From: Leclercia adecarboxylata
Lineage (GTDB): Bacteria; Pseudomonadota; Gammaproteobacteria; Enterobacterales; Enterobacteriaceae
DNA length: 64,000 nucleotides
Assembly: GCF_023639785.1 (NCBI RefSeq)
Contig: NZ_CP098325.1
Location: 2,728,001 to 2,792,000 of the forward strand
Reading direction: 5' to 3'
Shown here: positions 7,937 through 32,293 of the stretch, one piece after another
Layout of the letters: every line of letters starts with the position of its first letter
Position numbering within the stretch: position 1 is the stretch's first letter
Translations under genes and position numbers: made by a program
Notes under the pieces: generated by a model
Databases searched by the model: none
Seen by the model: only the letters and a program-made list of their open reading frames with translations
What the model was told of the DNA's origin: nothing

Positions 7937-9721
7937 ATGTTCAGGTCAATTCGCGCTCGTATTATTGCGGCGACGGTCGGATGTCTGATCGCCGCGCTTC
8001 TATTGAACACCGTCATTAACTTCCAGGTCACGCGTCAGGACAATCAACAGTCGCAACGCTCAATGCTCGCCAGTACCAGCGCCAGCCACAGCATGGCGAT
8101 TGCCGACTGGGTCAGCAGCAAGACGACGGTCATCAACTCCCTGCAAAACGTTGCCCTGAGCGACGATCCGGTACCGATGTTTAAACAGCTGGCCCAGGCT
8201 GGCGGGTTTATTAACGTCTATGTCGGCTACGCCAGCAAAACCGCGAAGTTCTCCAATCCCGACGGCGTGCCCGCCGACTACGATCCGACGGTGCGCCCGT
8301 GGTATCAGCAGGCCGTGAAAGAAGATCGCGCCATTGTCACCGCGCCCTATGTCGATACCGGTACCAAAAAGCTGGTGGTGACCTTCGCCGTGCCGGTGAA
8401 AGAGAACGGCGAATTAAAAGCCGTGCTGGCGGGCGACGTGGCGATGGACAGCGTGATCGCCAACGTTCGCGGCATTCATCCGACCCCGGCCAGTAGCGGT
8501 CTGCTGGTGGACAGCGATGGCGCGGTCATTGCCGCCAGCGATCCTGAGCTGACCCTGAAGCCCTTCAGGGATGTCATCAGCGGCGTCGATCTGGCAGCGC
8601 TGAAAAACGGCAACAGCGCTAACGGGGAGTACAACGGCGTGGCGAAAATCTTCTCTGCGACCCCGATTGCCGGCACCCAGTGGCAGCTGATTGTGGCGCT
8701 CGACAGCGATGATGCCACCTCGGGTATGCGCACCCTGCTGAAAGCCTCCTCCCTGTCGCTGGTGGTCCTCGTGCTGCTCAGCGCCGTGGTGGTGCACTTT
8801 GTGATTGCCCGTCTGCTGAAACGCCTGTCGGAGATCCGCGATGCGATGCATGCCATTGCTAACGGCACCAACGATCTCTCCCAGCGCCTGCCGGAGAAAG
8901 GTGACGATGAGGTGGCGCAGATCGCCCATGCGTTCAACGCCTTCAGCGATAAGCTGTCGGTGGTAATGGTGCAGCTGCGCGACGCCAGCGCCTCGGTGAA
9001 AAACGCCGCCCAGGAGATTGCCGCCGGTAACCAGGATCTCTCTGGCCGTACCGAGCGGGCCGCCTCCAGCCTGCGAGAAACCGCCAGCGCCGTGGAGCAG
9101 ATCACCGCCTCCGTCGCCCAGTCCACCGAATCCGCCGCCGTGGCGAACGAGCAGGCTAGCAAAGCCGCCGAGGCCGCGACGCGCGGCGGCAGCGTGGTGT
9201 CCCAGGCAATCTCCACCATGCAGTCCATCGAGGCCGCCTCGACCAAAATTGGCGACATCACCAGCGTGATTGACGGCATTGCCTTCCAGACCAACATCCT
9301 GGCGCTGAACGCCTCGGTCGAAGCGGCGCGAGCGGGTGAACAGGGTCGTGGCTTTGCGGTCGTGGCGGGAGAAGTGCGTAACCTGGCCAGCCGCAGCGCC
9401 CAGGCGGCAAAAGAGATCAAGAGCCTGATAGACTCCACTACCGACAGCGTGGCCACCGGTTCGCGCTATGTGCATCTCGCCGGCCAGAGCATGGATGAGA
9501 TTGTCACCAGCATCGGCAGCATGTCGGGGATCATGCGGGAGATCACCGTCGCCACCAGCGAGCAGATGAAAGGCATTCAGGAGATTAACCGCGCGGTGCT
9601 CAATCTGGACAGCATGGTGCAGCAGAACGCCGAGCTGGTGGTGGAGTCAGCCGCCGCGGCCAGCGCCCTGCAGGGTCAGGCAGGCGACCTCGCTGAGACC
9701 GCAGGCCATTTCCGCATTTAA
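7937..9721 (+). CDS. Methyl-accepting chemotaxis protein with periplasmic Cache-type sensor
   Basis: 594-residue inner-membrane chemoreceptor. N-terminal membrane helix at about 8-28; a periplasmic double-Cache-like domain to about residue 270 (contains VRPWYQQAV and TAPYVDTGTKKLVVTFAVPV, typical of dCache amine or amino-acid sensors); second membrane helix near 272-295; HAMP; then the cytoplasmic signalling coiled coil with the conserved hairpin tip (FQTNILALNASVEAARAGEQ). The C-terminus ends GHFRI and lacks a NWETF-type pentapeptide for CheR/CheB docking. Monocistronic with its own sigma-28 promoter. The ligand cannot be deduced; it lies beside the nas/nar-type region but nothing in the sequence ties it to nitrate. 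Confidence 0.92.
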   Translation: MFRSIRARIIAATVGCLIAALLLNTVINFQVTRQDNQQSQRSMLASTSASHSMAIADWVSSKTTVINSLQNVALSDDPVPMFKQLAQAGGFINVYVGYASKTAKFSNPDGVPADYDPTVRPWYQQAVKEDRAIVTAPYVDTGTKKLVVTFAVPVKENGELKAVLAGDVAMDSVIANVRGIHPTPASSGLLVDSDGAVIAASDPELTLKPFRDVISGVDLAALKNGNSANGEYNGVAKIFSATPIAGTQWQLIVALDSDDATSGMRTLLKASSLSLVVLVLLSAVVVHFVIARLLKRLSEIRDAMHAIANGTNDLSQRLPEKGDDEVAQIAHAFNAFSDKLSVVMVQLRDASASVKNAAQEIAAGNQDLSGRTERAASSLRETASAVEQITASVAQSTESAAVANEQASKAAEAATRGGSVVSQAISTMQSIEAASTKIGDITSVIDGIAFQTNILALNASVEAARAGEQGRGFAVVAGEVRNLASRSAQAAKEIKSLIDSTTDSVATGSRYVHLAGQSMDEIVTSIGSMSGIMREITVATSEQMKGIQEINRAVLNLDSMVQQNAELVVESAAAASALQGQAGDLAETAGHFRI

Positions 9722-24988: not shown

Positions 24989-25114
24989 CCGGGGCAAAGC
25001 GCCTTTTTTGCCCCGCAGCCTGCGGGTTACGTGTATAATAGGCGTAGTTATTTACTTTTCTTCGACTCGTTAATGTTAACGTGTTGAATATCAAGACATT
25101 AAGGTGATTCAGAA

Positions 25115-26209
25115 ATGGGATTCAAATGCGGTATCGTTGGTCTGCCTAACGTTGGCAAATCCACCCTGTTTAACGCGCTGACTAAAGCGGGCATCGAGGC
25201 GGCGAACTTCCCGTTCTGTACCATCGAGCCAAACACCGGTGTCGTACCCATGCCCGATCCGCGTCTGGATCAGCTCGCGGAGATCGTAAAACCGCAGCGT
25301 ATTCTGCCGACCACCATGGAGTTCGTGGACATCGCAGGTCTGGTAAAAGGTGCCTCCAAGGGCGAAGGTCTGGGTAACCAGTTCCTGACCAACATCCGTG
25401 AAACCGAAGCAATCGGCCATGTTGTGCGCTGCTTCGAGAACGACAACATCATCCACGTGAACAACAAAGTGGATCCGGCTGACGACATCGACGTCATCAA
25501 CACCGAGCTGGCGCTTTCTGATCTCGACACCTGCGAGCGCGCCCTGCACCGCGTGCAGAAGAAAGCCAAAGGTGGTGATAAAGACGCAAAAGCGGAACAG
25601 GCTGCGCTGGAAAAATGTCTGCCACAGCTCGAAAACGCAGGCATGCTGCGCGCGCTGAAAAACCTGACCGACGAAGATAAAGCGGCGATCAAATACCTGA
25701 GCTTCCTGACCCTGAAGCCAACCATGTATATCGCTAACGTCAACGAAGACGGTTTTGAAAACAACCCATACCTGGACAAAGTGCGCGAAATCGCGGCGGC
25801 GGAAGGTTCTGTCGTTGTGGCCGTGTGTGCGGCTGTCGAGTCTGATATCGCCGAGCTGGACGATGCCGACCGTGAAGAGTTCATGGCCGAGCTGGGTCTG
25901 GAAGAGCCAGGTCTGAACCGCGTGATCCGCGCCGGTTATGAGCTGTTAAACCTGCAGACCTACTTCACCGCGGGCGTGAAAGAAGTGCGCGCATGGACCA
26001 TCCCTGTCGGCGCCACTGCTCCGCAGGCGGCGGGTAAGATCCACACCGACTTTGAGAAGGGCTTTATCCGTGCCCAGACCATCGCGTTTGAAGACTTTAT
26101 TGCTTATAAAGGCGAACAAGGCGCGAAAGAAGCCGGCAAGATGCGTGCGGAAGGTAAAGACTACATCGTTAAAGATGGCGATGTGATGAACTTCCTGTTT
26201 AACGTTTAA
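25115..26209 (+). CDS. ychF: Redox-responsive ATPase YchF (OLA1-type)
   Basis: Ribosome-associated P-loop protein that prefers ATP. 364 residues with the P-loop GLPNVGKST near the N-terminus, the NVNE motif in place of NKxD (the basis of ATP specificity), a helical insert and a C-terminal TGS domain ([13 protein letters not shown]). One residue longer than the E. coli form I recall. A near-consensus -10 (TATAAT at 25034) precedes it; pth lies 126 bp upstream. Confidence 0.96.
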
Positions 26210-26250
26210 TGTCTTAATTAAGCCGCTTGCCTTGGCTTATTCAGATATAA

Positions 26251-26280
26251 AAATCCACGCGCTTGCGTGGATTTTTTATT
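26251..26280 (+). terminator. Terminator after ychF
   Basis: AAATCCACGC / GCGTGGATTT arms with a GCTT loop and a T-rich tail (26272-26280). It marks the boundary where the GC-rich core genome gives way to the AT-rich glycan island. Confidence 0.9.
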
Positions 26281-26289
26281 GGAAGAAGC

Positions 26290-28062
26290 TTATTGAAAGT
26301 ACAGTCGGAAGGAAAACGCTCCACCCATTTTGACACCATCCACATAGGCTTCTCCTTTCGGATATCTGTCTACAGCACCGGGTCCAAATCTGTTTAATAA
26401 AAAGACTGAGGCTTCATATTCCGGCTTCAAGGCCCACCAGGTGATGGCATTATCTGACGTACACTCAGCACATGTGAGACGCAATGTATATTTCTGTTTT
26501 TTAATAATTTTCACCTGGTTAAAATCAAACCATGCGTAAGCATTGTCTTCAAGAGTTTCCATATTGATAACCTCATTGGCTACCTTCTTTCCTGACTGAT
26601 CCAGTAACGTCAGCGTTAAGGGGCCATGATTTTGTCGTGCAAAGGTAGCCAGCATCAATTCAACCCCTTTGAGGGTATCCGTTTCGGCGATAATGGTCTG
26701 TTCAAAGTAACGACCTGGGATGAGATACCCGTAACTGGTATTAAACAGAGGTTGTTCAACAATCTCGGAGTGCCACGTTCTGAGATCTAAAATTTTTACT
26801 GTCGCAGGGTAAGTCGCTGTGAATAGACCTGTTATCATCACCAGAGAAATGATGGTTTTTACAACCTTATTTCTCAGGTACGCAATCACCTTTGCTATTA
26901 CTAAAGAACATGCGGGTAAAAATCCAAAGAAATATCTGGCCTGCATTGCACCTGTATAGCCCGTTTTTAAATGCATGTCTCTGATAGTAAAGAAGTATAT
27001 AATAAAGAAAATAAAAAATGCCACGATCAACGAGCATGTGACAGTGAAATAAGATCCATGCCTGGATGGCCTTTTAATTAATACATATCCAAACATCACC
27101 GCCAACATAGTCAAAATTGTTTTAACGACGAATATTCTAATTTCACTGTCAGCAATATAAATATGCCCATAGGGGATAGTCAGGGTGACCAGATTGCCGT
27201 TGAGAAAGTTACCAACAAAATCAGCCAGGGCCAATCTTGTTGCAGTCGGGTTTTCAACGAAAAACCATGTTGCAGGCGTGCCCTGCGGGGCAGGATAAAA
27301 TCCCCCATATGTTCTATGTACGCTAATAAAATAGATAACTACGACCGCAACTGATAAAATTATAACTATCCCTTGTTTTACAGATAAATTCTTAACAATT
27401 TTTATTACTCTGGCAAAATTAAGGCTCGCAACGCAGAACATCATGCAGATTATCGCCAGTGAACCCGTGGCTTTACTGAGTGAAGCAATAAGCCCGCCTG
27501 CGCAAATGGAAATAATAAAGGCCGTTGATGGTTTTCTATCGTTATCAATCTCTATCAACCCTACCAGGCCATAGATTACTAAAGTACAACCGAGCATATT
27601 TATCTGATCGTTAGTGACTGCGCTACCTAAAAGTACAAACATTGGAATAACTAATAAGAAAGTGCCACCCAAAAAGGTAGCAAGACTGGACCCTGTGGTC
27701 TGGTATAACATCCGACATGTGAGCGCAATGATAAGAAGAGAGATAAACATGTTTACATATCGGCCTACATATGCAAATACATCCTGCATATGTAATATCT
27801 TGGTTAACTCGCCTACAATAACGTAATATAATGCTGGATGATTCAGATAATTAAATTTAGTACTCGCGTAAATCAAACCTGCATTGTAGTCCGGAAAACC
27901 ATTTTTGATAACATCAATAATATATCCCATATGAGCAAACCCGTCAGGGAAGAATCCAGGGCTATAGGATTGAGAATAACCTACTGCCAGCATCAGATAA
28001 AACAAGCAAAGAAAAATAACGATAACAACAACACTGAGTTTTTGTTTTTTCATCTCAGTCAT
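26290..28062 (-). CDS. Large polytopic membrane protein, GT-C/DUF2142-like putative glycosyltransferase
   Basis: 590 residues. About 11-12 hydrophobic helices span residues 8-410, followed by a soluble, beta-rich C-terminal domain of about 180 residues ending RLYFQ. The first periplasmic loop contains acidic residues (FFPDGFAHMGYIID), as in GT-C enzymes that use polyprenyl-phosphate sugars; the helices plus C-terminal domain also resemble DUF2142-type proteins. The start at 28062 overlaps the upstream stop by 4 bp (ATGA); Met at 28053 is an alternative. Strongly AT-rich. In a Gtr-like system this would be the periplasmic transferase that decorates an O-antigen or other glycan. Acceptor and sugar unknown. 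Confidence 0.72.
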   Translation of the reverse strand: MTEMKKQKLSVVVIVIFLCLFYLMLAVGYSQSYSPGFFPDGFAHMGYIIDVIKNGFPDYNAGLIYASTKFNYLNHPALYYVIVGELTKILHMQDVFAYVGRYVNMFISLLIIALTCRMLYQTTGSSLATFLGGTFLLVIPMFVLLGSAVTNDQINMLGCTLVIYGLVGLIEIDNDRKPSTAFIISICAGGLIASLSKATGSLAIICMMFCVASLNFARVIKIVKNLSVKQGIVIILSVAVVVIYFISVHRTYGGFYPAPQGTPATWFFVENPTATRLALADFVGNFLNGNLVTLTIPYGHIYIADSEIRIFVVKTILTMLAVMFGYVLIKRPSRHGSYFTVTCSLIVAFFIFFIIYFFTIRDMHLKTGYTGAMQARYFFGFLPACSLVIAKVIAYLRNKVVKTIISLVMITGLFTATYPATVKILDLRTWHSEIVEQPLFNTSYGYLIPGRYFEQTIIAETDTLKGVELMLATFARQNHGPLTLTLLDQSGKKVANEVINMETLEDNAYAWFDFNQVKIIKKQKYTLRLTCAECTSDNAITWWALKPEYEASVFLLNRFGPGAVDRYPKGEAYVDGVKMGGAFSFRLYFQ

Positions 28063-28913
28063 CTCAGGCTAAGGGAGTATAAGTAAAAAAAACAATCGCC
28101 AACAACCGTTGTTATTCGACTTAATATTACCGCCATGACAATGTCAATCTCAGCAAAGAAAGGTTTTAACAACAGAATCAGCAAAAATTCCCGGATACCC
28201 ACCCCTGCGGGCGAACCCGGTGTGACCAAACCTGCAAGCCACGCGATGACATAGGCTCCAATGAGAGGCAAAGTCTGGGCGAGAGTCAAGGTCCAGCTAT
28301 CGACAATTGAATAGAGTACGCAAAGGAACACGGTACCTGATATAAGCAGGAACAAAAAGTAACGGATAACTGCCTTAATTAAACCACTCTGACCTCGCCA
28401 TTTAAGGCCCCATGCAACTAATAGTACGGTAATAATAAAGAGGGACAGGCCATATACAATGCTGAAAGCCGGATATAACAAGGGTAACATCCACAGGACA
28501 AATCCGGCACCGGTCAGAACCAATAGCAGTAACTCCAGAAAAGCGCTTTTGGCTATCGCTTTTCCGGAAAAGCCGTAAGACATTGCCAAAAATTGCCTTC
28601 CGGCAAACTGGAATATATTGCCAGGCACATATTTCGCCAGTTGGGTCAGCCCATATATTCGGGTGGCAATCCGGGCACTGATAGTTTGCTCAAGCCCGAG
28701 CATCAGCAATCGCCACGCTGCGGCAAGGATAATATTCGCCGCACCGTAAACGCCTGCCAGCAGCAAAATTAACAGCAGCAACGTAACGGTAAACGTATTA
28801 TCCGGCACCTGTGACCAGTATGCATTGATTCTGTGGACAACAAACAGGACACTCAACAGGGCAATAACGCTACCAGCATAATTGAGTGCCTTACGTAGGT
28901 TACTCTTTGTCAT
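28059..28913 (-). CDS. Flippase-like integral membrane protein (LPG synthase TM/AglD family)
   Basis: 284 residues from the ATG at 28913; an upstream extension lies inside the methyltransferase gene and lacks support. Seven to eight hydrophobic helices, with YGLTQLAKYVPGNIFQFAGRQ and WLAGLVTPGSPAGVGIREFLLILLL, the two fingerprints of the lysylphosphatidylglycerol synthase TM/UPF0104 superfamily (for example AglD). Members are often encoded beside polyprenyl glycosyltransferases and are suspected of moving lipid-linked sugars. Overlaps the methyltransferase by 14 bp and the GT-C-like gene by 4 bp. Confidence 0.75.
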   Translation of the reverse strand: MTKSNLRKALNYAGSVIALLSVLFVVHRINAYWSQVPDNTFTVTLLLLILLLAGVYGAANIILAAAWRLLMLGLEQTISARIATRIYGLTQLAKYVPGNIFQFAGRQFLAMSYGFSGKAIAKSAFLELLLLVLTGAGFVLWMLPLLYPAFSIVYGLSLFIITVLLVAWGLKWRGQSGLIKAVIRYFLFLLISGTVFLCVLYSIVDSWTLTLAQTLPLIGAYVIAWLAGLVTPGSPAGVGIREFLLILLLKPFFAEIDIVMAVILSRITTVVGDCFFYLYSLSLR

Positions 28914-29547
28914 ACGGCACGCACAGCAACATAGTCCAGGGGAAAGGAGAGGAAACTTCAAGTACCTTGAAATACTGGCCGGTAAAATTGATAAAAGCAT
29001 TTTTTGACCAGTGCTGAATATGTCCGGGCGTGTTACCGAATTTTTTCAAATACTTACCGCGAGCCATATTCAGCGCGCACCACACAGGTTCACGTGGAAC
29101 GCTAACGATAAGATAATGTTTAACCAGACTCTGCAAGACTTTCATCGCCTGGTCTGGATCCTCCAGATGTTCCATCACTTCACAGCATACGACGAGATCC
29201 GCACTATCACTTTCAGGTTTGAGATTGTAGATACTTTTAGCGTTGAATACATCAGCCATAAGACCCGCACTTGCCGCATTTTCTCGCGCTATAGAGATAA
29301 CATCATGAGAAAAATCACTGCCAACCGCCTGTAATCCCTGCGCGTTCCACTTGTTGACCCAAAAACCTTCCCCGCAGCCAACCTCATGAATAGTCTTTGG
29401 ATTAGCTCGGCTCACAAAGTTCTCGAGAGAGGAGTCAAATCCCTTCATCATCCATTTTACAATGGGATTTTTAGATCCGTACTTATCAAAAGCGTTTCCG
29501 AAAACTACCCCGTCTTCTGATTTTCCGCCCGATACTTTAAAACCCAT
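28900..29547 (-). CDS. Class I SAM-dependent methyltransferase
   Basis: 215 residues from the ATG at 29547 (GAGGTG upstream). Rossmann motif I HEVGCGEGFWVNKW near residues 54-67, motif II VGSDFS, then LVVCCEVMEHLEDPDQA, as in Methyltransf_11/23 enzymes acting on small molecules or lipid-linked substrates. Lies 11 bp after the GT2 gene and overlaps the flippase-like gene by 14 bp, so all four genes form one transcription unit. A methylated sugar or lipid carrier is plausible; the substrate is not deducible. Confidence 0.8.
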   Translation of the reverse strand: MGFKVSGGKSEDGVVFGNAFDKYGSKNPIVKWMMKGFDSSLENFVSRANPKTIHEVGCGEGFWVNKWNAQGLQAVGSDFSHDVISIARENAASAGLMADVFNAKSIYNLKPESDSADLVVCCEVMEHLEDPDQAMKVLQSLVKHYLIVSVPREPVWCALNMARGKYLKKFGNTPGHIQHWSKNAFINFTGQYFKVLEVSSPFPWTMLLCVPYDKE

Positions 29548-29558
29548 AAACACCTCTT

Positions 29559-30530
29559 CTATTTTTGATCTTTATTATTAGCGTGAGTAGTTGGGCCGGA
29601 CTCGAGTTGAGCGACCTTAAAACGCAGATCTTCCAGAAGCTTTCTGTTAGCGGATAAAAGATCCGTAACAAAAGCAACCAGAATGGTCTGAAAACCCATA
29701 CCCATTAGTATCGATGCCAGGATTAATGACTGAACATAACCATTACCGTCGCCGGTAAGGTATTTATAGAGGAAACGAACGCCTAATAAAAATCCGGCAG
29801 AAAAAAGTACGATGCCTATCGTGCCAAAAAAGCGGAATGGGCGATAAATAATAAAAATCCGGACAATAGTAATAATACTTCTTTTGATATAGGAAGAAAC
29901 ACTTTTTACCAGACGCGAAGGCCGTAAGTCGTCGTTGACACGAACTGATACTGAGGTAATGGTAATATTTTTTTGTCCGGCCTGAATAATGGTTTCTAAT
30001 GTATAAGTATAGTCATTGAATACCATTAATTTTTGCGCAGTTTCACGCGACATAGCCCTGAAACCGCTCGGCGCATCGGGAATAGTGGTATTACTTGCCA
30101 CACGTACCACCCAGCTTCCGATTTTCTGGAGGTATTTTTTTATGGGTGAAAAGTGTTCAATAGTGGAAATGGGTCGTTCACCGATGACCATTTCTGCGCG
30201 ATGCTCGAGTATAGGCGCCACAAGCAGCGGTATGTCATCAGCACTGTATTGGTTATCAGCATCCGTATTCACAATGACATCAGCATTCAAATTCAGACAT
30301 GCATCCAGGCCTGTCATAAAAGCTTTAGCAAGGCCTTTATTACCTGCATGCTTAACAATATGATCAACGCCGTTTTGTCTGGCCACGTTAACAGTGTCGT
30401 CGGTACTGCCGTCATCAACAATCAGCCATTCCACCGTATCAAAACCAGCAATCTGTCTGGGTAGGGCTTTCAAAGCAATTGCAAGAGTTTCAGCTTCATT
30501 AAAGCAGGGGATTTGTATGATTAATTTCAT
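29559..30530 (-). CDS. GtrB/DPM1-like polyprenyl-phosphate glycosyltransferase (GT2)
   Basis: 323 residues. GT-A catalytic domain with the N-terminal IPCFNEAETL, the nucleotide-binding VDDGSTDDT and the metal-binding NTDADNQY; then two C-terminal membrane helices (about 232-255 and 268-290), the layout of bactoprenol glucosyltransferase GtrB, ArnC and dolichol-phosphate mannose synthase. By family knowledge it would load a sugar onto undecaprenyl phosphate at the inner face of the membrane. First gene of the AT-rich operon. Confidence 0.83.
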   Translation of the reverse strand: MKLIIQIPCFNEAETLAIALKALPRQIAGFDTVEWLIVDDGSTDDTVNVARQNGVDHIVKHAGNKGLAKAFMTGLDACLNLNADVIVNTDADNQYSADDIPLLVAPILEHRAEMVIGERPISTIEHFSPIKKYLQKIGSWVVRVASNTTIPDAPSGFRAMSRETAQKLMVFNDYTYTLETIIQAGQKNITITSVSVRVNDDLRPSRLVKSVSSYIKRSIITIVRIFIIYRPFRFFGTIGIVLFSAGFLLGVRFLYKYLTGDGNGYVQSLILASILMGMGFQTILVAFVTDLLSANRKLLEDLRFKVAQLESGPTTHANNKDQK

Positions 30531-30826
30531 TACCCTTCACCTTACATTTCTTCTTGATTGATTTTTCTACCGCTTCCTTATTGAAGGTTACACTTTATAT
30601 ACAAAAAGTTTGCTTTACAAACTTCACCTCTATGAAGTTTTGTTTTAATGATGACATTCTAAAAAGTGTTGCCTGGATCGCAAAGTTACTAAAATATATT
30701 CTGATAACTTATGGTTTGCTATTTTACCGTTCGGAATCGGGCGAGAATAATAGTGATATATCCGCTGTGTTCTGAGGCATATAAGTATTCTCTTTCCAAC
30801 ACTAACTTGTATAACATTCTGCCAGG
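30531..30826 (-). promoter_or_regulatory. AT-rich leader of the glycan operon with overlapping hairpins and a partial ops-like motif
   Basis: No convincing gene in this 296-bp stretch. Two inverted repeats overlap: AAACTTCA/TGAAGTTT arms at 30619-30626 and 30633-30640, and AAGTTTG/CAAACTT arms at 30606-30612 and 30618-30624. They share 30619-30624, so only one can form at a time. On the minus strand the second is followed by TTTTG-rich sequence. At 30567-30573, 37 bp before the first ATG, the minus strand reads GCGGTAG, part of the RfaH ops element (GGCGGTAGCGT). Regulation by attenuation or RfaH is only a suggestion. Confidence 0.4.
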
Positions 30827-31789
30827 TTAGTCCCCTGACGCAGCAAACCCCCTCCGGTACGCCAAAGGCGTCGTCGACAGCTGATTCCTGAAATGATGGC
30901 GCATCGTCGCCACGCTGCCAAACCCCACCTCTTCCGCGATACGCTCAATCGACAGCTGGCTGTTTTCCAGCAAGTCCTGGCTGCGGCTCAGGCGGGCATT
31001 GAGCAGCCACTGGGCGGGGGTTTTACCGGTTGTCGCGGCAAAGCGGCGCAAAAAGGTTCTCGGGCTCATGCCGACAAATTTCGCCAGCGACCCGACGCTG
31101 TGCGGGGCGGCAAGGTTTGCCAGCAGATGATCGAACAGCGCGCCCAGACGGTGCCCCTCATAGGCAACGGGCACCGCCTGCTGGATAAACTGGGCCTGGC
31201 CGCCGTCGCGATGCGGCGACACCACCAGCCGACGCGCCACGCGGTTCGCCGCTACGCTGCCATAATCCCGGCGCACCAGGTGCAGGCAAAGATCGATACC
31301 TGCCGCGCTGCCGGCGGACGTCAGCACATCGCCGTTATCGATATACAGCACGTCAGGGGTCACCTGAATGGCCGGGTAGCGCTGCTGCAATAAATCGGTG
31401 TAACGCCAGTGGGTGGTGGCCTGGCGGTTATCAAGTAATCCTGCGGCGGCGAGCACAAACACGCCGGAACAGATCGACAGGATCCTCGCGCCACGACGAT
31501 GCGCCGCGACAAGCTGCTCGCACAGCGCGCCGGGAACCGGGACATCCGCCCCCCGCCAGCCGGGTACGATAATGGTTCCCGCCTCACTCAGCAGTTCCAG
31601 CCCACCATCCACCACCAGCCTGAAACCGCCCGTTGCGCGCAGCTCTCCCGAATCAACACCCGCCACCGCAAAGCGATACCAGTCGTCGCCCATCTCGGGA
31701 CGGGCAAGGGCAAAAATTTCAACGGCAATACCAAATTCAAAGGTACAGAGTCCGTCATAGGCCAGCACAACGACAAGAGGGTTATTCAT
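30827..31789 (-). CDS. ftrA: AraC-family regulator FtrA (GATase1-like/DJ-1 domain)
   Basis: 320 residues: an N-terminal class I glutamine amidotransferase-like domain (VVVLAYDGLCTFEFGIAVEIF, with the nucleophile-elbow Cys in RILSICSGVFVLA) and a C-terminal AraC HTH pair (SVGSLAKFVGMSPRTFLRRFAATTG, IERIAEEVGFGSVATMRHHF). Matches the enteric FtrA group of GlxA-type regulators. The ATG at 31789 is chosen; an in-frame TTG at 31801 is possible and neither has a strong ribosome site. Divergent from a rhodanese gene that is its probable target. Confidence 0.85.
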   Translation of the reverse strand: MNNPLVVVLAYDGLCTFEFGIAVEIFALARPEMGDDWYRFAVAGVDSGELRATGGFRLVVDGGLELLSEAGTIIVPGWRGADVPVPGALCEQLVAAHRRGARILSICSGVFVLAAAGLLDNRQATTHWRYTDLLQQRYPAIQVTPDVLYIDNGDVLTSAGSAAGIDLCLHLVRRDYGSVAANRVARRLVVSPHRDGGQAQFIQQAVPVAYEGHRLGALFDHLLANLAAPHSVGSLAKFVGMSPRTFLRRFAATTGKTPAQWLLNARLSRSQDLLENSQLSIERIAEEVGFGSVATMRHHFRNQLSTTPLAYRRGFAASGD

Positions 31790-31897
31790 CACAGCACTCA
31801 ATGCTTTTTGTCATGATCTTGATGTTATATGGCATTTCTGCCAGCTGTCAAAACCGCTTCTCAACCGTAGAGTAAAGACTCAATTACGGAGGTGTTT

Positions 31898-32293
31898 ATG
31901 AGCTATGTGACTGATTATCCTGCTGCGCCAGCAGAAACAGCGGTGAACCATTTTTTACAGCGCCTGAGTGTGGAAACGGACTGCGATGATGTCCACACCG
32001 CATTCAAGGAGGGCGATATCGATTTTGTCCTGTTGCACGTGGTGGGAAGCCCGGAGGCGTTTGCCCGTCGCCATATTCCGGGTGCGCTACACCTGCGCCA
32101 CCGGGATATGACCGAGCAAAGAATGGCGGAGTGGCCTGCCGACACCCTGTTCGTGGTGTATTGTGCCGGGCCACACTGCAACGGCGCCGACAGAGCCGCG
32201 CTGAAGCTGGCGCAGATGGGCCGTCCGGTAAAAATTATGATTGGCGGCATGACCGGATGGGCCGACGAAGGCTTTGCTTTTAACCCTCAGTAA
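31898..32293 (+). CDS. Rhodanese-like sulphurtransferase
   Basis: 131-residue single rhodanese domain. Conserved RRHIPGALHLRHRDM and the active-site loop VVYCAGPHCNGADRAA with the catalytic Cys in CAGPHC. ATG at 31898 with GGAGG 7 bases upstream; an in-frame GTG six bases earlier is less likely. Cytoplasmic, no signal peptide. Divergent from ftrA, about 108 bp apart; this pairing is common in enterics. The in vivo sulphur acceptor is unknown. Confidence 0.87.
   Translation: MSYVTDYPAAPAETAVNHFLQRLSVETDCDDVHTAFKEGDIDFVLLHVVGSPEAFARRHIPGALHLRHRDMTEQRMAEWPADTLFVVYCAGPHCNGADRAALKLAQMGRPVKIMIGGMTGWADEGFAFNPQ

Follow-up and report, generated by a model that had tools for sequence, protein, structure and literature searches.

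The subject of this analysis is a cassette of four genes in Leclercia adecarboxylata, at positions 26290 to 30530 of a 64,000-nucleotide stretch of contig NZ_CP098325.1 (forward-strand positions 2,728,001 to 2,792,000; hereafter the window). We assign a probability of about 0.6 to the reading that the cassette encodes a periplasmic glycosylation system of the three-component (Gtr-like) type with a flippase other than GtrA, in which the first three genes (the head) would be a portable donor-making module and the exchangeable last gene (the tail) would set acceptor and linkage. This reading is supported because the glycosyltransferase of family GT2 is DPMS/ArnC/GtrB-like, the flippase candidate gives an MprF-like model, the last protein gives GT-C fold matches, the gene order of the head is conserved and the ratio of nonsynonymous to synonymous substitution rates (dN/dS) is low. 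The cassette seems to be a variant, so far overlooked, of a known route to altered surface sugars.

In the proposed scheme, GT2 would load a sugar onto polyprenyl (undecaprenyl) phosphate at the cytoplasmic face, a soluble methyltransferase would O-methylate the loaded sugar, or its nucleotide-sugar precursor, ahead of export, the MprF/UPF0104-type protein would flip the methylated sugar on its lipid carrier, and the GT-C would pass the sugar on to a glycan in the periplasm, with O-antigen or some other surface polysaccharide as the likeliest acceptor. The genes stand in the order of these proposed steps: charge the lipid, methylate, flip, transfer.

Open reading frames (ORFs) for all four genes were found where a preliminary description of this DNA had placed them. 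All lie on the minus strand, running leftward from 30530 to 26290, tail-to-tail with ychF across a shared inverted repeat. The first (29559..30530) encodes a GT2 polyprenyl-phosphate-sugar synthase of the GtrB/DPMS type (323 residues; predicted step 1), and the second (28900..29547, from a conserved ATG; a GTG start would give 29553) an accessory class I S-adenosylmethionine (SAM) methyltransferase. The third (28059..28913) encodes a putative flippase or scramblase of the UPF0104/MprF flippase-domain type with seven transmembrane (TM) segments (284 residues; predicted step 3); a longer ORF from 29000 (313 residues) is probably over-long, and the relative at locus L022 begins at the aligned ATG. 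The fourth (26290..28062) encodes a GT-C-like glycosyltransferase, the variable tail of the cassette (590 residues; predicted step 4). After comparison-based correction of the starts, the methyltransferase and flippase genes overlap by 14 nt and the flippase and GT-C genes by 4 nt (ATGA), as had been described for the whole operon, but GT2 and the methyltransferase gene are 11 nt apart.

The first protein matched Pfam PF00535 at 84 bits and the GtrB-like PHROG 841 at 5.2e-25; its NCBIfam AglJ match (109 bits) lay far under the cut-off of 325. A profile of 14 relatives matched the solved DPMS 5mlz at 3.9e-16, as well as ArnC and sll0501 (5ekp). A simple hydropathy count gave two TM segments, placed by eye in the C-terminal part. 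By homology, the protein would be an enzyme that charges polyprenyl phosphate with a sugar.

The second protein matched Pfam Methyltransf_23 at 53.6 bits and has no TM segment. Its 12 relatives are 57-93% identical, with G-C-G-E-G invariant, and its profile matched generic SAM enzymes only, such as UbiG. It is predicted to methylate a sugar on the cytoplasmic side: since the protein lacks TM segments and SAM is cytosolic, it should work before flipping, on a nucleotide sugar or a lipid-linked sugar.

Structure prediction, which the preliminary description had advised, was run on the last two proteins and gave MprF-like and GT-C-like folds respectively. The AlphaFold2 (AF2) model of the third protein has a predicted local distance difference test score (pLDDT) of 79.7, and Foldseek returned MprF at ranks 1-5 and 7 (probability 1.00, TMq 0.51-0.59, E 1.1e-3 to 6.4e-2), so the predicted fold best matches that of the MprF flippase domain. 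A sequence profile of this protein matched no PDB chain at E<=1. The relative at L116 scored 32.2 bits with Pfam LPG_synthase_TM, just short of the cut-off of 33.4. As to a dedicated flippase, what was observed for the 7-TM protein is its MprF-like predicted fold and its position in the operon. Matches to GtrA, a flippase family that we take to be PF04138, were absent for all four proteins in Pfam, NCBIfam and PHROGs at E<=1 (for the methyltransferase in NCBIfam, among the best 25 of 34 matches).

For the last protein, five PDB chains matched the low-confidence AF2 model at E<=0.001: EmbC (7bvh, 6.1e-6), a viral capsid chain (175 columns), ArnT bound to undecaprenyl phosphate (5f15, 5.6e-4), 9d7u and ALG12 (9.9e-4). 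Weaker matches were AglB, PMT4 and AftB (E 2e-3 to 2.5e-2) and CBM6 modules (1.1e-2 and above). The model has a C-terminal beta-sandwich at about residues 433-589, to which we infer that the CBM6 matches correspond, the Foldseek output being without query ranges. The 34% identical homologue at L097 exceeded the Pfam cut-offs for PMT (26.7 against 22.7) and PMT_2 (26.4 against 26.1), and a profile of the family found nothing among PDB sequences at E<=1. The protein was earlier called DUF2142-like, a name that is not supported, as DUF2142 gave no match at E<=1 in Pfam or NCBIfam; the model points instead to a PMT/EmbC/ArnT-like GT-C.

Between the window and its relatives, dN/dS (NG86) was 0.04-0.09 for GT2, the methyltransferase and the flippase and 0.11-0.15 for the GT-C, from the 15 of 24 gene pairs with computable dS, most of which exceeded 1 and was near saturation. 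By this measure all four genes are under purifying selection, and since dN/dS is 0.04-0.15 the ORFs are not chance coding. The function first proposed, Gtr-like glycan modification in which the flippase comes from a different family and a methyltransferase is included, thus gains predictive support from protein families, predicted folds, the GT2 profile and selection.

Genomes were searched for relatives at several taxonomic ranks. In the genus, the flippase was found in 6 of 61 genomes, every time within the full four-gene cassette, which lay 3' of ychF on the same contig in all six carriers, at a distance of 0.1 to 16.6 kb to its nearer edge; in genome G335, ychF and a glxA-like gene about 0.1 kb apart mark the site without the cassette. 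In an order sample of 295 genomes (four of this genus), the 590-residue protein matched three: its own, G276 and, marginally and in part, G081 (E 9.3e-4). The family search (392 genomes, E<=1e-3) gave nine genomes with a match to the flippase profile, own included; all nine keep the order GT2-methyltransferase-flippase, the last two genes being apparently broken in G612. Chromosomal neighbours of the cassette vary between genera (by eye). In the class (350 genomes), the flippase profile matched five at E<=1e-8, own included, with GT2 adjoining in all five and the methyltransferase in three. In the phylum (398 genomes), the methyltransferase profile matched eight at E<=1e-10; those looked into were the own genome and, of the others, the best three (E<=1e-30), all three with an adjoining flippase, the four weaker ones being left out.

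Outside the family, G1008 keeps the head order, G725 has GT2, a 550-residue protein with 12 TM segments, the methyltransferase and the flippase, and G1225 has the head followed 0.6 kb on by a GT87 protein; matches in G804 were more distant (GT2 1.1e-21, methyltransferase 5.8e-8, flippase 3.5e-21). The cassette relative in G1240 adjoins GDP-mannose dehydratase and epimerase genes. A Ruegeria plasmid carries GT2, a 558-residue protein, another glycosyltransferase, a methyltransferase and a 305-residue flippase-like protein, the last two being weak matches, and at Ruegeria locus L104 a flippase homologue was found with no GT2 or methyltransferase match in its 10.5 kb. The Phyllobacterium locus L106, in which GT2 alone was recognised as homologous, was not counted as a cassette. 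Megablast of E. coli genomes gave no match. Phage and plasmid records contained nothing that matched the GT-C, and neither did viral contigs, with a single sequence or an alignment as query; in genome contigs the single sequence found nothing and the alignment found five loci. The flippase had no phage match; GT2 and the methyltransferase were not searched against phages.

Two of the related loci have features of their own. At L102 (G612) the methyltransferase and flippase are apparently in pieces and another tail, by eye resembling that of L123 and L124, is present, which gives the picture of a decaying copy. At L101 (G480), a second methyltransferase gene (8219-8800) lies between GT2 and the usual one, perhaps for a doubly tailored sugar.

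The tail is the part that changes. Homologues of the 590-residue protein are present in the window, in five other genus genomes, in Buttiauxella brennerae (57%), in G276 (36%) and in G651 (34%). In G443, G617 and G480 the tail consists of two other membrane proteins (662-693 and 458-472 residues), and G547 has the first of these alone. A profile of the 590-residue family matched none of ten other tail candidates. Ten unrelated tail candidates were scanned with Pfam (two each at L099 and L101; one each at L105, L116, L117, L124, L125 and L126, the last standing apart on the other strand). Three exceeded a Pfam cut-off: DUF6077 (L101), which we take to be GT-C in nature, PMT_2 (L117) and GT87 (L125). 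The four-gene order sought elsewhere was recovered in full in six genus genomes, but in other genera the head is kept and the tail often swapped.

That the last gene is exchanged points to a general way of altering surface sugars. More tentatively, and with less confidence than in the reading as a whole, the donor module, which would deliver one methylated polyprenyl-phosphate sugar, may couple by tail exchange to many unrelated GT-C enzymes and so provide GtrA-independent antigenic or phage-receptor diversity in Proteobacteria, with the MprF-type protein as a transporter of polyprenyl-phosphate sugars.

Several observations weigh against a Gtr-like system. The flippase candidate scored 21.9 bits with Pfam LPG_synthase_TM (UPF0104, PF03706), under the gathering score of 33.4, and its best Foldseek E-value of 1.1e-3 does not reach 0.001; its earlier designation as an AglD/UPF0104-type protein is upheld by the predicted fold, but not by Pfam. 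The GT-C model has a pLDDT of 59, two of its five matches at E<=0.001 are not GT-C by title (the viral capsid chain and 9d7u), and the protein has no NCBIfam family and one chance-level Pfam match, with no Pfam cut-off passed. Six of the ten unrelated tails have no Pfam match and one (L105, PMT_2) falls under the cut-off. In G1109 and G1240, of one genus (L123, L124), the order is GT2, flippase and a 607-residue protein with no methyltransferase match, and in G731 (L117) the methyltransferase and flippase face each other beside a PMT_2 protein, with no GT2 in 16.5 kb. No conserved ops/JUMPstart element was found upstream of the cassette in an alignment of seven copies. Finally, the activity of the window's own GT-C copy is uncertain in view of a unique substitution, E41G, in a conserved motif.

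That substitution gives the first of four other explanations, that the cassette of this strain is inactive or altered. The codons for GT-C residues 39-45 (27928..27948, minus strand) read PDGFAHM in the window and PDEFAHM in the six other copies of the alignment, and the motif is one that we take to be the likely catalytic loop, where acidic residues are presumably catalytic in GT-C enzymes. At 235 columns invariant in six other copies (Buttiauxella here replacing G276 of the first alignment) the window's GT-C has eight unique departures, E41G among them; such departures number 3-4 in the four close relatives and 23-25 in the two most distant. However, the ORFs are intact, dN/dS is low, and the 458- and 463-residue tails of L099 and L101 read D-G at a similar-looking motif (by eye), so that we regard inactivity or alteration as rather unlikely.

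Protein O-glycosylation, in which the GT-C tail would place the lipid-linked (methylated) sugar on secreted proteins in the manner of PMT, is unlikely. The PMT and PMT_2 scores of the tail homologue at L097 and the presence of AglB and PMT4 among the fold matches argue for it, but EmbC and ArnT, with polysaccharide and lipid A acceptors, gave the stronger matches by E-value, and a glycan acceptor is suggested by the CBM6-like domain at the end of the protein. Moreover, PMT-family Pfam names span many non-protein acceptors.

The methyltransferase might also stand outside the donor pathway, capping or marking another glycan or molecule and being merely co-inherited. Its lack of a match at L123 and L124, its opposite orientation at L117 and its exclusively generic profile matches are consistent with this. 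We consider it quite unlikely, however: the gene sits between GT2 and the flippase in nine of nine family genomes (as a piece only in G612), is strongly conserved (57-93% identity) and overlaps the flippase gene in the window.

A glycolipid pathway, in which GT2 would glycosylate a membrane lipid for flipping by the MprF-like protein (the scheme proposed for gpgSDF) and the product would be an envelope lipid, is improbable: the flippase type is that of MprF and of GpgF (PMC12713373; here and below, cited statements refer to the available excerpts of each source) and MprF scrambles lipids promiscuously (PMC11980842), but GpgS is a GT4 rather than a DPMS-type GT2 with TM segments, and the operon's GT-C would have no place.

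The history of the cassette was considered from base composition and flanks. Its G+C content is 42.5% (0.425) against 59.3% (0.593) in the rest of the window, and none of 1026 segments of the same length (50-base steps, none overlapping the cassette) was as low (lowest 0.541), which bears out the earlier remark that it is far richer in A+T than its flanks. Recent import, as judged from this composition, was rejected: all seven copies measured are A+T-rich (G+C 0.38-0.45) at a nucleotide divergence of up to about 30%. Cassette identities to the window are 82.6, 75.9, 73.3, 72.6 and 69.7%, and the right flank, in the carriers that have it, is 82.6-90.5% identical. Judged by these comparisons, the cassette was apparently acquired long ago, has held its low G+C content and has become patchy through gain or loss. 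Horizontal spread on a longer time scale is likely because presence is patchy (6 of 61) and the neighbours differ in other genera.

Site-specific integration at the 3' end of ychF, suggested by partial ychF copies, was rejected; Rhs-tip exchange with flanking ychF is likelier at L069, L070 and L071 (G326, G320 and G321). At these loci, pieces of the 3' end of ychF, 60-413 bp in length and 75-91% identical, are found up to 16 kb 3' of the gene, and the ORFs between them are Rhs-like genes or core pieces (two RHS by Pfam) and small orphan genes, the ychF pieces being arranged as if every tip exchange had carried its own. Similar copies were seen at L068, L072, L073, L074 and L075; none lies 3' of ychF in the window, and a search of the open-licence literature recognised no description of such repeats. 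At L081 (G305), the 16.6 kb between ychF and the cassette contain defence genes, among them one for an Avs5-like protein (1486 bits), as well as an SngC-like helicase and ORFs that by eye are transposase-like; at its far side the insert has a partial repeat of the end of ychF and of the terminator. At L019, L020 and L022, genes for a LacI-type regulator, a major facilitator superfamily transporter and a beta-galactosidase-like protein lie between ychF and the cassette (by eye); the same set occurs in this region of the cassette-free L064 (by eye).

Upstream of the operon, an A+T-rich leader (30531..30826, minus strand; G+C 0.34) is presumed to be the promoter region, where promoter-like matches were at chance level (15 found, 11.6 expected). 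In the seven-copy upstream alignment, inspected by eye, the leader element TATAAAGTGT is present in the window and in three of the six other copies (G305, G296, G346), differs by one base in G297 and was not seen in G318 and G276. Control by RfaH through ops (JUMPstart) was rejected: in the window, a GCGGTAG core precedes GT2 by 43 nt, and it is not in the output for the other six copies (GCGGTAT in G305). With one mismatch allowed, the window has 22 matches to the ops pattern where 14.6 are expected, a count of 22 being reached in 4 of 100 shuffles, and the upstream site is not among the 22. Downstream, an inverted repeat read from the sequence, AAATCCACGC-AAGC-GCGTGGATTT with A/T runs on both sides (26251..26274), is a probable convergent terminator common to the cassette and ychF; it is absent from the output of the terminator scan, and G305 and G346 have a similar element 3' of the cassette, as G335 has after ychF. 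There are no tRNA genes in the window and no Rfam matches in 25000-32000.

The preliminary description had known no named system with this exact gene set in this place. The open-licence literature search likewise recognised no bacterial system as this gene set and found no SAM-methylated donor for bacterial surface-glycan decoration, but the set is not unique to the place, with relatives in other genera. Of lipid-linked sugar donors that carry a methyl group, the closest precedent seen is methylthio-xylose of mycobacteria (PMC11127046). Flippase activity has not been directly shown for the SMR- or MATE-type proteins of three-component systems (PMC11127046), and scramblase assays exist for MprF (PMC11980842); a compact cassette with an MprF-like protein would make the flippase question of these systems testable.

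Among known systems, GtrA-GtrB-Gtr(specific) O-antigen glucosylation likewise unites a polyprenyl-phosphate-sugar synthase, a flippase and a GT-C in one operon, with a constant head and an exchangeable specific transferase (PMC11127046), whereas the window's cassette has an MprF/UPF0104-like flippase and an added methyltransferase. The phage or prophage association typical of gtrABC was not seen for the GT-C and flippase, although GT2 resembles the GtrB-like PHROG 841. The pentofuranose system of Citrobacter youngae O1/O2 also combines a charged lipid, a flippase, a GT-C and an optional sugar-tailoring gene (an epimerase there, a methyltransferase here), but it uses a phosphoribosyl pyrophosphate-dependent synthase and a MATE-type flippase and lies downstream in the O-antigen locus, in contrast to the GT2 and UPF0104-type flippase beside ychF (PMC11127046). 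In methylthio-xylose capping of mycobacterial lipoarabinomannan, an extracytoplasmic GT-C adds a methyl-bearing sugar from a decaprenyl-phosphate-linked donor; that sugar derives from methylthioadenosine, and the excerpt mentions no SAM methyltransferase/UPF0104 cassette (PMC11127046). Archaeal UPF0104 neighbourhoods, with an AglD-like glycosyltransferase, COG0392 and a PMT/STT3-related protein adjoining, have a predicted role in glycosylation, but belong to an archaeal S-layer or N-glycan context and, in the excerpt, no methyltransferase is mentioned (PMC5898192). The gpgSDF genes of Pseudomonas aeruginosa pair a predicted UPF0104 (AglD2/YbhN) flippase with a glycosyltransferase and a sugar-tailoring enzyme, but the former is a GT4 acting on phosphatidylglycerol, the latter a deacetylase, and there is no GT-C (PMC12713373). 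By fold, the MprF flippase domain is the closest match to the 7-TM protein of the window, which, unlike MprF, stands alone without an aminoacyl synthase domain.

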